From contig NZ_KI866530.1 in assembly GCF_000511175.1 (NCBI RefSeq), forward strand, positions 2,582,959-2,646,958: a stretch of DNA of 64,000 nt. The letters are read 5' to 3'. Numbering within the stretch: the stretch's first letter is position 1; each line of letters begins with the position of its first letter. The position numbers were made by a program, and so were the translations under genes. This stretch comes from Sediminibacterium salmoneum NBRC 103935 (lineage in GTDB: Bacteria > Bacteroidota > Bacteroidia > Chitinophagales > Chitinophagaceae). The notes below the pieces were generated by a model. It did not search any database, had not been told where the DNA came from, and worked only from the letters and a program-made list of their open reading frames with translations. This document shows positions 9,097 through 14,578 of the stretch, piece after piece.

Positions 9097-9975
9097 ATGA
9101 AAGTTGCCATTTATAGTCGTGGCTTAGATATAGAACAAGAAAATCCGCTGTTGATTTTATTGGAAGAACTAAGTAGGCATGATACAGAAATATTGCTTTT
9201 TAATACCTTATTTGAACAGTTTAATATTCCACAACAGCTTTGTAGTAAAGTTCAGCATTTTTCCGGGTACGAAGACCTGGATGAGTCAATTGACTGTGTA
9301 ATTAGTTTGGGGGGAGATGGAACCATGCTTGATACCATTACACTAATCAGAGAAAAAAATATTCCGGTGCTGGGTATTAATTTCGGAAGATTGGGTTTTC
9401 TGGCGAGTATCAGCAGAGAAGAATTGTCTACAGCAGTAGATGCTTTAGTGAATCACACGTATATCATTGATAAACGTACCCTGATACATCTGGACTCCAA
9501 TGTTCCATTGTTTACTGATGCCCCTTTTGCGCTGAACGAATTTACCATTCACAAGAAAGACACTTCCCCCATGATTAAGATTCACACTTATATGAATGGG
9601 GAGTTTTTAAATACCTATTGGGCAGATGGATTAATTGTTTCTACCCCTACCGGATCAACAGGGTACAACCTAAGTTGCAATGGACCTATTTTATTTCCAG
9701 ACTCTTCCAGCCTGGTTATCACCCCTATTTGTCCGCATAATTTAAATGTCCGTTCCATTGTTATACCCGACAATAATATTATTTCTTTTGAGGTAGAGGG
9801 AAGGGCTGATGAGTTTATTGTGGCAATGGATGCACGCAGAGAACTGGTGCCCAAATCGGTTCAACTGGCTGTACGAAAAGAATCATTTAACATTAGTTTA
9901 ATAAGATTAAACGAAAATACTTTTCTCTCCACGCTGCGAACAAAGCTTACCTGGGGTCTTGATAAAAGAAATTAA
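9097..9975 (+). CDS. nadK: NAD kinase
   Basis: 292-residue cytosolic enzyme that phosphorylates NAD to NADP, the entry point to the NADPH pool. The diagnostic GGDG motif is at residues 72-75 within ISLGGDGTMLDT. It is followed by VLGINFGRLGFLA, the catalytic/NAD-binding block NEFTIHKKDTSPMI, and STPTGSTGYNLSCNGPI near residue 185. Its length is usual for bacterial PpnK. The gene neighbours (CBS protein upstream, DUF6089 then uppS-bamA downstream) match the common Bacteroidota order. Confidence 0.97.
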   Translation: MKVAIYSRGLDIEQENPLLILLEELSRHDTEILLFNTLFEQFNIPQQLCSKVQHFSGYEDLDESIDCVISLGGDGTMLDTITLIREKNIPVLGINFGRLGFLASISREELSTAVDALVNHTYIIDKRTLIHLDSNVPLFTDAPFALNEFTIHKKDTSPMIKIHTYMNGEFLNTYWADGLIVSTPTGSTGYNLSCNGPILFPDSSSLVITPICPHNLNVRSIVIPDNNIISFEVEGRADEFIVAMDARRELVPKSVQLAVRKESFNISLIRLNENTFLSTLRTKLTWGLDKRN

Positions 9976-10034: not shown

Positions 10035-10883
10035 ATGTTGAAAAAGCTTTTAATTATTCTCCTTTCTTTGTCGGCCGGAATTTCGGCGAAAGCCCAGTTA
10101 ATGGAAAGCTTTTTGCATTCAGGTGAAATTGGTATTGGAGTTGGAATGGGACATTATTTCGGAGATCTGAATCCTGAAATCCGTTTCAATCGACCCAAAA
10201 CGGCTTTTGGGCTTTTCTACAGAAAACAAATCAATAATTATATCAGCGTTCGTTTATCTGGGGAATATGCTTTGCTGGGTTACTCGGACCGATACAGTAA
10301 TAATGATGTACAAAGATCCAGAAACCTCAGTTTTAATTCTAATGTGTGGGAAGTGGGTATTTCCGGGGATTTTAATTTTTTCCGTTTCCAGCCTGGATTT
10401 GAGGGATTTAATTTTACCCCCTATATAGGGTTGGGTATCGGGGCCTTTTCCTATGATCCCTATGCTTATCTGGGTGGGCAAAAATATTTTTTACGATTGT
10501 TGGGCACAGAGGGTCAGGGATCTTCCCTTTATTTAGACCGCCAGTATTATAATCCGGTGGCCATCAGCATCCCCTTTACTTTTGGGGCAAAATATGCTTT
10601 GAATGCCCGGACCAATGTATTTGCTGAATTAATTTACCGGTTTACCAATACCGATTTTTTAGACGATGTAAGCGGCCAAACCTATGCTCCGGATGCGTTT
10701 TCGCCTCTTCCTGATGGGTCTCCCAGCCCGGCATTCCTGTTACAGGACAGAAGCTATGAAACCGGCGCTTCCATTGGTGTTAAGGGAAGACAAAGGGGAA
10801 ATAGCCTCAAAGCCGACGCTTTTGCAACCATTAAAGTGGGCATTTCCTTTAACCTGCACAACTACCGCTGCCCTACTTATTAG
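10035..10883 (+). CDS. DUF6089-type outer membrane beta-barrel protein
   Basis: 282-residue exported protein with a Sec signal (MLKKLLIILLSLSAGISAKAQ) and many alternating aromatic/polar strands, as in an outer-membrane beta-barrel. Examples are EIGIGVGMGHYFGDL, FTPYIGLGIGAFSYDPYA and FAELIYRFTNTDFLDDVSG. Proteins of this type sit between nadK and uppS in many Bacteroidota; the DUF6089 name is from that resemblance. The C-terminal line KVGISFNLHNYRCPTY holds the final strand. Its function is unknown, but the neighbourhood suggests envelope biogenesis. Confidence 0.82.
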   Translation: MLKKLLIILLSLSAGISAKAQLMESFLHSGEIGIGVGMGHYFGDLNPEIRFNRPKTAFGLFYRKQINNYISVRLSGEYALLGYSDRYSNNDVQRSRNLSFNSNVWEVGISGDFNFFRFQPGFEGFNFTPYIGLGIGAFSYDPYAYLGGQKYFLRLLGTEGQGSSLYLDRQYYNPVAISIPFTFGAKYALNARTNVFAELIYRFTNTDFLDDVSGQTYAPDAFSPLPDGSPSPAFLLQDRSYETGASIGVKGRQRGNSLKADAFATIKVGISFNLHNYRCPTY

Positions 10884-10959: not shown

Positions 10960-11729
10960 ATGGTTAAAAAGGAAGACCTTTTGCCGCAAATTAACAAAGA
11001 CCGTTTACCTAAACATATTGCCATCATTATGGATGGAAATGGTCGTTGGGCGGAGGAAAAAGGACAGGACCGTTTATATGGTCATTTTCATGGGGTAGAG
11101 AGCGTTAGAGATATTGTAGAAGGCGCAGCAGAGCTAGGTGTGGGCTATCTTACCCTATATGCATTCAGTACGGAAAACTGGGACAGACCTCAGCCGGAAG
11201 TAGATGGATTAATGGCATTACTGGTAGATACCATCCGTAAAGAAGTGCCGGTGCTCAATAAGAATAATATTCGTTTGCATGTAATTGGAAATACAGATTT
11301 ATTGCCTGAGTTTGCCAAGACTGCTTTGCAGGAAGCTTTGCAAATGACAGAAAGCAATACAGGCCTGAATCTCATTATGGCATTGAGTTATAGCAGTCGC
11401 TGGGAACTGGTGAATGCCGTAAAAATATCGGGCTGGATGTTGCCAGTGGGGTTATCGATCCAAAAGAAATAACCGCCGAAACTTTGCAGCATTACCTTGC
11501 AACCAGTAACTTTCCAGACCCTGAGCTGATGATCAGAACCAGTGGTGAATATAGAATCAGTAACTTTTTATTGTATCAGCTGGCCTATGCTGAACTGTAT
11601 TTTACCAATACACGCTGGCCAGACTTCAGAAAAGAGAACCTGTATGAAGCCATTATAGATTTTCAATCCAGGGAAAGGAGATTTGGCAAAACCGGCCATC
11701 AGGTGCAAACCGAGACCAGTATTGCTTAG
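10960..11729 (+). pseudogene. uppS: Isoprenyl transferase (undecaprenyl-diphosphate synthase), apparent -1 frameshift
   Basis: Cytoplasmic cis-prenyltransferase that builds the C55 lipid carrier for peptidoglycan. The first frame (10960 to a stop at 11472) has the catalytic IMDGNGRW (Asp25), the FHG block and LYAFSTENWDRP. The second part is read in another frame and ends at 11729; it holds [20 protein letters not shown] and [10 protein letters not shown]. The two join if one A is added to the A5 run at 11421-11425, giving [19 protein letters not shown] and about 256 residues, a normal length. The gene is normally essential, so a homopolymer sequencing error is more likely than a true null. 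A TAATTTTG box at 10935-10942 suits a promoter. The gene identity is sure; the break is real in this sequence. Confidence 0.9.
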
Positions 11730-11842
11730 TTTATTTAACAAACAGTTTTCATTATTCGGGGTAATTTGCCCAGCTTAAAGAACCAAATTAATTGCTGCGT
11801 GTGCGGAAATAACCAACCGCCAACAGAACAAACAGAAACGGG

Positions 11843-14578
11843 ATGCATAAAGTGTTTAAATTATCGGTGTTCGCTTTAGTTGTTTTATTATTTACTAAAC
11901 CTGCATTTGCACAACAAACTTCTGATACAACCATCCGCTCTATTGACGCAGATCTGATCAATCTTTTCAACCAAAAAACTCCCAAGAAGTACAGGATTGC
12001 AGCAGTAAAAGTAGTAGGGAACAGTTTTTTTGATGAGAATCTGCTGATCTCTATAGCCAACTTGAATATTGGGGATGAAGTTACCATTCCGGGTGGCGAT
12101 AATTTTTCCAAAGCTATTACCAAACTCTGGAGCCAGAACTATTTTAGTGATGTTGAAATATATATAACCAAGCTGGAAGGCAAAGAGATTGATATAGAAA
12201 TTTCAGTTACGGAACGTCCCCGTTTATCTAATTTCTTCTTTAAAGGTATTCCAAAAGGTCAGGCCGATGAATTAAGAGGCAAAACCGGATTGGTTCCTAA
12301 CCGTGTAGTAACTGAAAATATGAAAATCACCGCTTCTGAAGTAATCAAGAAGTTTTATGGTGAGAAGGGGTACAGAGACACCAAGGTTAAAATTGCGGAA
12401 AGAAGGGATAGTACTTTTGCCAACACGCTTGCGTTGGATTTCTTTATTGATAAGGGGCCAAAGGTAAAAATCAACAATATCAATTTCGGGGATATTACCA
12501 TTGATGAGGTTAAATTGAAAAAACAACTTAAAGGGTCAAAGGAAAGGTCCAGACTTACTTTGTTCCCTGTTATGGATAGCGGCCGAATTGTGGTTCCTAA
12601 AAACTACACTTTCGAAGAATACCTGAAAGAAAAAGGCTATTTAACTTTCAGTAAAACAAAGCGGGTGATGGATCCATACATGAGGATCAAATTCAGTTCT
12701 GCAAAGTTCGACGAAAAGAAATATTTAGAAGACAAAGAGTCTTTGCTGGAATATTATAACACTTTGGGGTATAGAGACGCGGTGATTGATAAAGATACTG
12801 TGTATAGTGTTGGTAACGGCAATCTGAACATCGACCTTAAGATGAACGAAGGAAGAAAATATTACTTCGGTAATATTTCCTGGAGAGGGAACACCAAATA
12901 TTCTGATTCAATTTTAACTACAATCCTCGGAATTAAAAAAGGAGATATCTATAACCTGGATGTATTGAATAAGAGACTGGGTAAATCTTCTACTCCGGAT
13001 GGAATGGATATCAGTGGATTGTATCAGGATGATGGTTATTTGTTCTTCAGAACAGAACCCATTGAAACAGCGGTGTACAACGATACCATCGATTTTGAGA
13101 TTCGCATTATTGAAGGTCCGCAAGCAACCATTAAGAATGTTCGTATTGCAGGTAATGACCGTACCAAAGAATATGTAATCAGAAGAGAAATCAGAACCAT
13201 CCCCGGGGAAAAATTCAGCCGTCAGCTATTAATTCGTTCGGTGCGTGAACTGGCTCAGTTGAATTATTTTAACCAGGAAAAAATTACTCCTAATCCGGTG
13301 CCTAATCAGGAAGACGGAACGGTAGACATCAACTATAGTGTTGAAGAAAAATCAAGCGATCAGCTGGAATTGAGTGCAGGATGGGGTGGTTTGATTGGAT
13401 TGACTGGTACCCTGGGTGTATCGTTCAATAACTTTTCTGCAAAGAATTTATTTAAGAAATCAGCCTGGGATCCATTGCCAATGGGAGATGGTCAGAAGTT
13501 GAGTCTGCGTGTTCAGAGTAATGGTCGTGCATTCCGTTCTTATAACTTCTCTTTCACCGAGCCCTGGTTAGGTGGTAAAAAAAGAAATGCATTAACAGTC
13601 AGCGTTTTCAATACCAAGTTTGGTCAGACATTCGACCCGTTAACCGGTCGTTTTGATCCTGCCATTGCAAGTCAGCGATATATTTCTACTACAGGGGCAA
13701 CGGCAAGTATTGCCCGTCAGTTAAAATGGCCAGATGACTATTTCTCTTTGTCGATGGGTTTAAACTATACCCGATATAAACTAAGTAACTATGCCATTGA
13801 CCCTACCAACTTACCTGGTTTTGACAATGGTATTGTAAACAACCTGAACTTCAGAATTGCTTTACAGCGTTCTTCTATAGACCAGCCTATGTTCCCTAAA
13901 ACAGGGTCTAACTTCCTGGCCAGTTTACAGATTACTCCACCGTATTCTTTAATTAATAGCAGTATTAATCCTGCAGATAACCCATACAAATGGATTGAAT
14001 ACCATAAGTGGCGTTTTAACGGGGAATGGTTTGTTCCATTGGGTAAACCACACGGAGAAGACCGAAACAAACAATTCGTAATGCGTTTTGCTGCTAAGTT
14101 TGGTTTTGTGGGCAGATTCAACGAAAAGTTACAGATTTCTCCATTCGAACGTTTCCAGGTAGGGGATGCGGGTTTAACCAACCAGTTTGCCTTATTAGGA
14201 TTTGATATTGTGGCACACAGAGGCTATCCGGTTTATGATAACTCTAATCCACGTGTAAACCCTGATCAGCAAAGAGCCAGCCAATACTTTACCATCTTTA
14301 ATAAATACACGATGGAATTAAGGTATCCGCTTAGCCTTAACCCAAGCAGTACCATTTTTGGTTTGGCTTTCTTTGAAGCAGCCAATGGCTGGTATTCCTT
14401 TAAAGATTATAATCCATTCCAGCTAAGACGTTCTGTGGGTGTAGGTATGAGATTCTTTTTACCTATGTTTGGATTGCTCGGATTCGATTATGGCATAGGA
14501 TTGGATAGGTTTAATGGAACCAATCAGTTAAGGGATGCAGCACGCTTTACCTTTATGCTTGGATTTGAACCTGAATAA
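11843..14578 (+). CDS. bamA: Outer membrane protein assembly factor BamA
   Basis: 911-residue Omp85 protein that inserts beta-barrels into the outer membrane. It has a Sec signal (cleavage about after TKPAFA), then a string of POTRA domains to about residue 480. POTRA-like text includes AAVKVVGNSFFDENLL, VTERPRLSNFFFKGIPKG and GPQATIKNVRIAGNDRTKEYVI. The C-terminal 16-strand barrel runs from about 500 and carries the conserved block FPKTGSNFLASLQITPPY and a lid-loop area around GYPVYDNSNPRV. The N-terminal region is longer than in E. coli, as is usual in this phylum. The two ompH genes follow 16 and 32 bases downstream in series, forming the standard assembly operon. Confidence 0.96.
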   Translation: MHKVFKLSVFALVVLLFTKPAFAQQTSDTTIRSIDADLINLFNQKTPKKYRIAAVKVVGNSFFDENLLISIANLNIGDEVTIPGGDNFSKAITKLWSQNYFSDVEIYITKLEGKEIDIEISVTERPRLSNFFFKGIPKGQADELRGKTGLVPNRVVTENMKITASEVIKKFYGEKGYRDTKVKIAERRDSTFANTLALDFFIDKGPKVKINNINFGDITIDEVKLKKQLKGSKERSRLTLFPVMDSGRIVVPKNYTFEEYLKEKGYLTFSKTKRVMDPYMRIKFSSAKFDEKKYLEDKESLLEYYNTLGYRDAVIDKDTVYSVGNGNLNIDLKMNEGRKYYFGNISWRGNTKYSDSILTTILGIKKGDIYNLDVLNKRLGKSSTPDGMDISGLYQDDGYLFFRTEPIETAVYNDTIDFEIRIIEGPQATIKNVRIAGNDRTKEYVIRREIRTIPGEKFSRQLLIRSVRELAQLNYFNQEKITPNPVPNQEDGTVDINYSVEEKSSDQLELSAGWGGLIGLTGTLGVSFNNFSAKNLFKKSAWDPLPMGDGQKLSLRVQSNGRAFRSYNFSFTEPWLGGKKRNALTVSVFNTKFGQTFDPLTGRFDPAIASQRYISTTGATASIARQLKWPDDYFSLSMGLNYTRYKLSNYAIDPTNLPGFDNGIVNNLNFRIALQRSSIDQPMFPKTGSNFLASLQITPPYSLINSSINPADNPYKWIEYHKWRFNGEWFVPLGKPHGEDRNKQFVMRFAAKFGFVGRFNEKLQISPFERFQVGDAGLTNQFALLGFDIVAHRGYPVYDNSNPRVNPDQQRASQYFTIFNKYTMELRYPLSLNPSSTIFGLAFFEAANGWYSFKDYNPFQLRRSVGVGMRFFLPMFGLLGFDYGIGLDRFNGTNQLRDAARFTFMLGFEPE

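Follow-up and report, generated by a model that had tools for sequence, protein, structure and literature searches.

A split uppS gene in the Sediminibacterium salmoneum genome as a probable 454 homopolymer artefact

In the deposited genome of Sediminibacterium salmoneum, the uppS gene (positions 10960-11729, + strand, of the 64,000-nucleotide stretch analysed here, called the window) is divided between two reading frames that join at a run of five A residues (11421-11425). The most probable explanation, to which we assign a probability of about 0.96, is that the gene itself is ordinary and essential and its split a 454 homopolymer sequencing artefact, a reading adopted because other essential genes of the same assembly are broken likewise. 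The living strain would then carry an ordinary, intact, single-copy uppS with six A residues at the site; 454 pyrosequencing and the Newbler consensus would have under-counted the homopolymer, leading to the deposition of A5, and the lost A would have moved the second half of the gene to the other frame. From the sequences of relatives, we infer that the true run is A6.

The split gene and its relatives

As deposited, the ATG at 10960 opens a frame of 170 codons with a stop ending at 11472. The first part of the gene (10960..11424, + strand), read in the frame of this ATG, matches positions 1-134 of the PF01255 model and 1-140 of TIGR00055. The second part (11424..11729, + strand), read in the other frame to its natural stop, matches PF01255 at 144-219 and TIGR00055 at 145-228. 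These two models of UppS and the cis-prenyltransferases are covered by the halves jointly, one frame each, and the deposited sequence contains no single continuous uppS frame. The open reading frames and the separate model matches of each half bear out the first-pass annotation, which had placed the halves in different frames parting at the A5 run. The predicted activity of the rejoined product is undecaprenyl diphosphate synthesis. The neighbours are ordinary: genes for an NAD kinase (9097-9975) and a PorG-like protein (10035-10883) lie on the 5' side of uppS, and that for a BamA-like protein (11843-14578) lies on the 3' side. No RNA family reached its gathering score anywhere in the 64-kb window.

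Alignment of the join with relatives, suggested at the outset as a check, gives the same answer in each of the two nearest ones. The same gene in Sediminibacterium sp. C3 (L033, NZ_KI669560.1), whose flanks align too, differs from that of the window in having A6 and one open frame of 256 residues. The uppS of a second relative (G017, taken as Sediminibacterium sp. TEGAF015, AP026683) is again the same gene, 92% identical, and it too has A6 and one open frame, unlike the window. The earlier description of "one extra A" at the join therefore holds if it is taken to mean that the window lacks one A. The window and C3 are 90% identical over 6,465 aligned bp, and the sole gap in that alignment is the missing A in the uppS run. 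A stretch of about 300 bases (window 11680-11979, L033 3722-4021), reaching from the last part of uppS across the spacer into the bamA-like gene, shows only two differences from C3, in a region that differs by 10% overall; this near-identity may perhaps reflect local recombination or constraint on the spacer.

A wider survey of relatives found a PF01255 match in 56 of 59, with exactly one in each of those 56; the other three genomes are incomplete (75, 56 and 76%). In 55 of the 56 the match starts at position 1 or 2 of the domain and continues through its last position; in the remaining genome, G026, the match spans 21-219. At the DNA level, uppS matches were found in 56 of 60 relatives, G026 contributing two fragments. 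Two uppS-matching places occur in G063 (G063:C47 and G063:C83), a genome with contamination given as 2%, for which a mixed bin is possible. The C3 UppS protein aligns as a single stretch, in one frame and over essentially its whole length, in all 63 related loci examined, which comprise 30 from the PF01255 survey, 29 from the DNA-match survey and 4 from a set of 80, with at least 4 of the 63 repeating a genome.

Both halves bear the marks of a protein under selection when each is read in its own frame. Compared with C3, the first half has 30 synonymous and 3 nonsynonymous changes in 155 codons (dN/dS 0.021), and the second has 21 synonymous and 2 nonsynonymous changes in the 100 codons compared (dN/dS 0.020). 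Against G017 the values are 0.012 for the first half and 0.050 for the second, and the second halves of the intact C3 and G017 genes give 0.041 when compared with each other. Conservation on either side of the join is far beyond chance. Judged by these substitution patterns, the halves are equally constrained and nothing points to decay, as would also be true after a very recent deletion.

Broken genes elsewhere in the assembly

The window sits in a single contig of 3,246,830 bp. The genome of the type strain NJ-44T was described as one scaffold of that length, assembled with Newbler 2.8 from 454 GS FLX Titanium reads alone, and the C3 genome was likewise derived from 454 reads, with the Celera Assembler (PMC3894271). 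TEGAF015 was assembled from PacBio CCS reads (PMC9671011), which applies to G017, a single contig of 3,055,665 bp, if G017 is TEGAF015. No other assembly of the S. salmoneum type strain (NBRC 103935) is described in either PMC3894271 or PMC9671011.

Two further essential genes, both outside the window, are split in the S. salmoneum assembly (G000, whose coordinates are used below) by a one-base shift in an A run: pheS (TIGR00468; 2566411-2567627) and prfA, encoding release factor 1 (NF001859, TIGR00019; 2913196-2914256), the names being assigned from the intact G017 copies. The pheS match occupies one place with a stop inside it, and its shift is visible against both G017 and C3. The prfA gene is in two pieces, each with a match containing a stop; its shift is visible against G017, and the C3 stretch compared ends short of prfA. 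Family searches of the assembly found no intact copy of either gene. The other match to the prfA model, an open frame at 1115915-1116865, scores 219.7 bits, below the family cut-off of 423.25, and is probably release factor 2. Bacteria are known to be unable to live without phenylalanyl-tRNA synthetase. The best argument for treating the shifts as errors is the implausibility of uppS, pheS and prfA all being dead at once. The lpxD gene (3007308-3008361, also outside the window) is likewise split, at a T run, but because the assembly has another LpxD-like open frame of 334 aa (2274625-2275518), it was left out of the tally of broken essential genes.

The frequency of such breaks was estimated by a gene-by-gene comparison of 800 kb each of the S. 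salmoneum assembly and G017 with one another and with 400 kb of C3. In its final form, the comparison counted frame-breaking gaps that are away from gene ends, lie at or next to a homopolymer of five or more in either genome, and are flanked on both sides by 25 codons of which 75% or more are conserved; this definition was fixed after inspection of an earlier event list (15 versus 5). Open reading frames aligned over less than 90% of their length or below 78% identity (70% in the first two versions) were left out, as were those aligned across N in every version except the first. With G017 genes as queries, 11 of 455 are broken in the S. salmoneum assembly, pheS and prfA among the genes broken there, while none of 465 S. 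salmoneum genes is broken in G017, the genome of the other technology (Fisher p = 0.0004); the final definition dropped 4 and 5 rows, respectively. C3 genes as queries are broken in 7 of 290 cases in S. salmoneum (2 rows dropped) and in 0 of 251 in G017 (1 dropped). With C3 as the target, 4 of 290 S. salmoneum genes (5 rows dropped) and 3 of 244 G017 genes (2 dropped) are broken. In these stretches, then, frameshifts that qualify are present in the two 454 genomes and absent from the PacBio genome.

All 11 shifts in S. salmoneum involve one base, eight being losses and three gains, with one gain located beside a run of unchanged length. The uppS shift is the only qualifying event in the window, where about 0.9 would be expected by proportion (11 in 800 kb). 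Looser versions of the count gave larger numbers for both genomes. The first, over 400 kb of each and with many differences at gene starts and N gaps in two, listed 19 of 255 genes broken in S. salmoneum versus 10 of 263 in G017. A stricter count over 800 kb gave 17 of 483 versus 9 of 493, and the next version listed 15 events in 455 genes versus 5 in 465, with 1 event in G017 in the run that used C3 queries. The excess of broken genes in S. salmoneum is in the same direction in every version.

The C3 contig (G084:C4) has homopolymer frameshifts of its own at 121896-123082, 264846-265618 and 365063-366042, each seen against both S. salmoneum and G017. A 702-bp gene of S. salmoneum at 2752637-2753337, with a one-base gap in CC, is 99.4% identical to C3, compared with about 90% around uppS, and is perhaps recently shared or mobile.

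Real deletion, recoding or a two-piece enzyme

The first-pass annotation had left three options open for uppS, namely sequencing error, recoding and a second uppS elsewhere. Sequencing error is strongly supported, recoding is without support, and the second gene was not found: a PF01255 search of the whole assembly, made in answer to the suggestion that another intact UppS be sought, yielded only the two halves. Were the one-base deletion genuinely present in the culture that was sequenced, uppS would be a very recent pseudogene, or the culture a mixed one, with the activity supplied from elsewhere. The constraint on both halves is equally expected after so recent an event, and the N content of about 1.1% in the 800 kb examined leaves room for a hidden copy, which is unlikely though not impossible. 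However, the split uppS is the sole PF01255 gene in the assembly, and yet users of its product are present, in the form of one member of PF00953, the family to which MraY belongs, and one BacA/UppP-type phosphatase (PF02673). Plasmid records gave one weak partial match, covering 23% of the query, and a 30-base stretch across the A5 join has no exact copy in viral contigs. Read as true deletions, the shifts in pheS and prfA would have to make those genes dead as well, and we judge a true deletion to be very unlikely.

Sites with A runs can slip in some bacteria, and slippage by -1 at this run would bring the two halves of uppS back together. If A5 were real, full-length UppS might be made by -1 ribosomal frameshifting or by transcriptional slippage at the run. 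NJ-44T would then obtain its sole UppS through frameshifting or slippage of a kind so far unrecorded, perhaps within a wider tolerance of A-run frameshifts that also rescues pheS and prfA. Both the local proposal and this broader one appear still more doubtful than a deletion. The zero frame reads GTA AAA ATA, in which inspection by eye finds no X XXY YYZ slippery heptamer. The fold of the 85 nucleotides 3' of the run is ordinary and resembles that of shuffled sequence (z -0.74; 44 of 200 shuffles equally or more stable) in a test of this one stretch for structures free of pseudoknots. Neither the split nor a slip site is conserved: all 63 related loci are in one frame, and because their codons at the join differ, no conserved slip site can be recognized. 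A literature search for a programmed frameshift in uppS yielded one paper, which concerns an insect. Alternatively, the two open frames might be translated separately and assemble into an active enzyme, the second piece starting at a TTG (11484) that lies 11 bases past the first stop. A piece of this kind would be missing 20 residues (encoded at 11424-11483) that C3 and G017 share almost unchanged, and a split uppS was seen in none of the 63 related loci examined. A two-piece enzyme is accordingly the least credible of these proposals, with a negligible probability.

Relation to known 454 errors

Several points weigh against the artefact reading. The run is short (six), coverage was about 35-fold (our own arithmetic from PMC3894271), three of the 11 events are gains, the definition of an event was settled post hoc, and the looser counts list G017 as well. 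At about 35-fold, few errors per site would be expected from the error data given in PMC3045373. Nevertheless, a handful of errors is unsurprising despite a low per-site rate, because the 800 kb of the S. salmoneum assembly that were compared contain A or T runs of length six at 1,450 places and of length seven at 548.

The relevance of these results is to curation only. If uppS was indeed broken by a sequencing error, the type-strain genome of S. salmoneum carries scattered homopolymer frameshifts, including those in uppS, pheS and prfA. Any pseudogene, lost gene or recoding event claimed on the strength of the deposited genome would then need to be checked against a resequenced one.

The closest known parallel is provided by 454 sequencing of E. 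coli K12 strains. The 454 homopolymer errors described there take the form of one-base gaps or insertions, about 90% of them in runs of at least five (PMC3045373). The uppS difference is of the same kind, an indel of one base in a run of five or more (A5 versus A6). The two cases differ in how errors were recognized: the E. coli K12 errors were assigned by comparison across eight genomes, with some of the candidates resequenced (PMC3045373), whereas the assignment in S. salmoneum is based only on relatives and on the essentiality of the genes.
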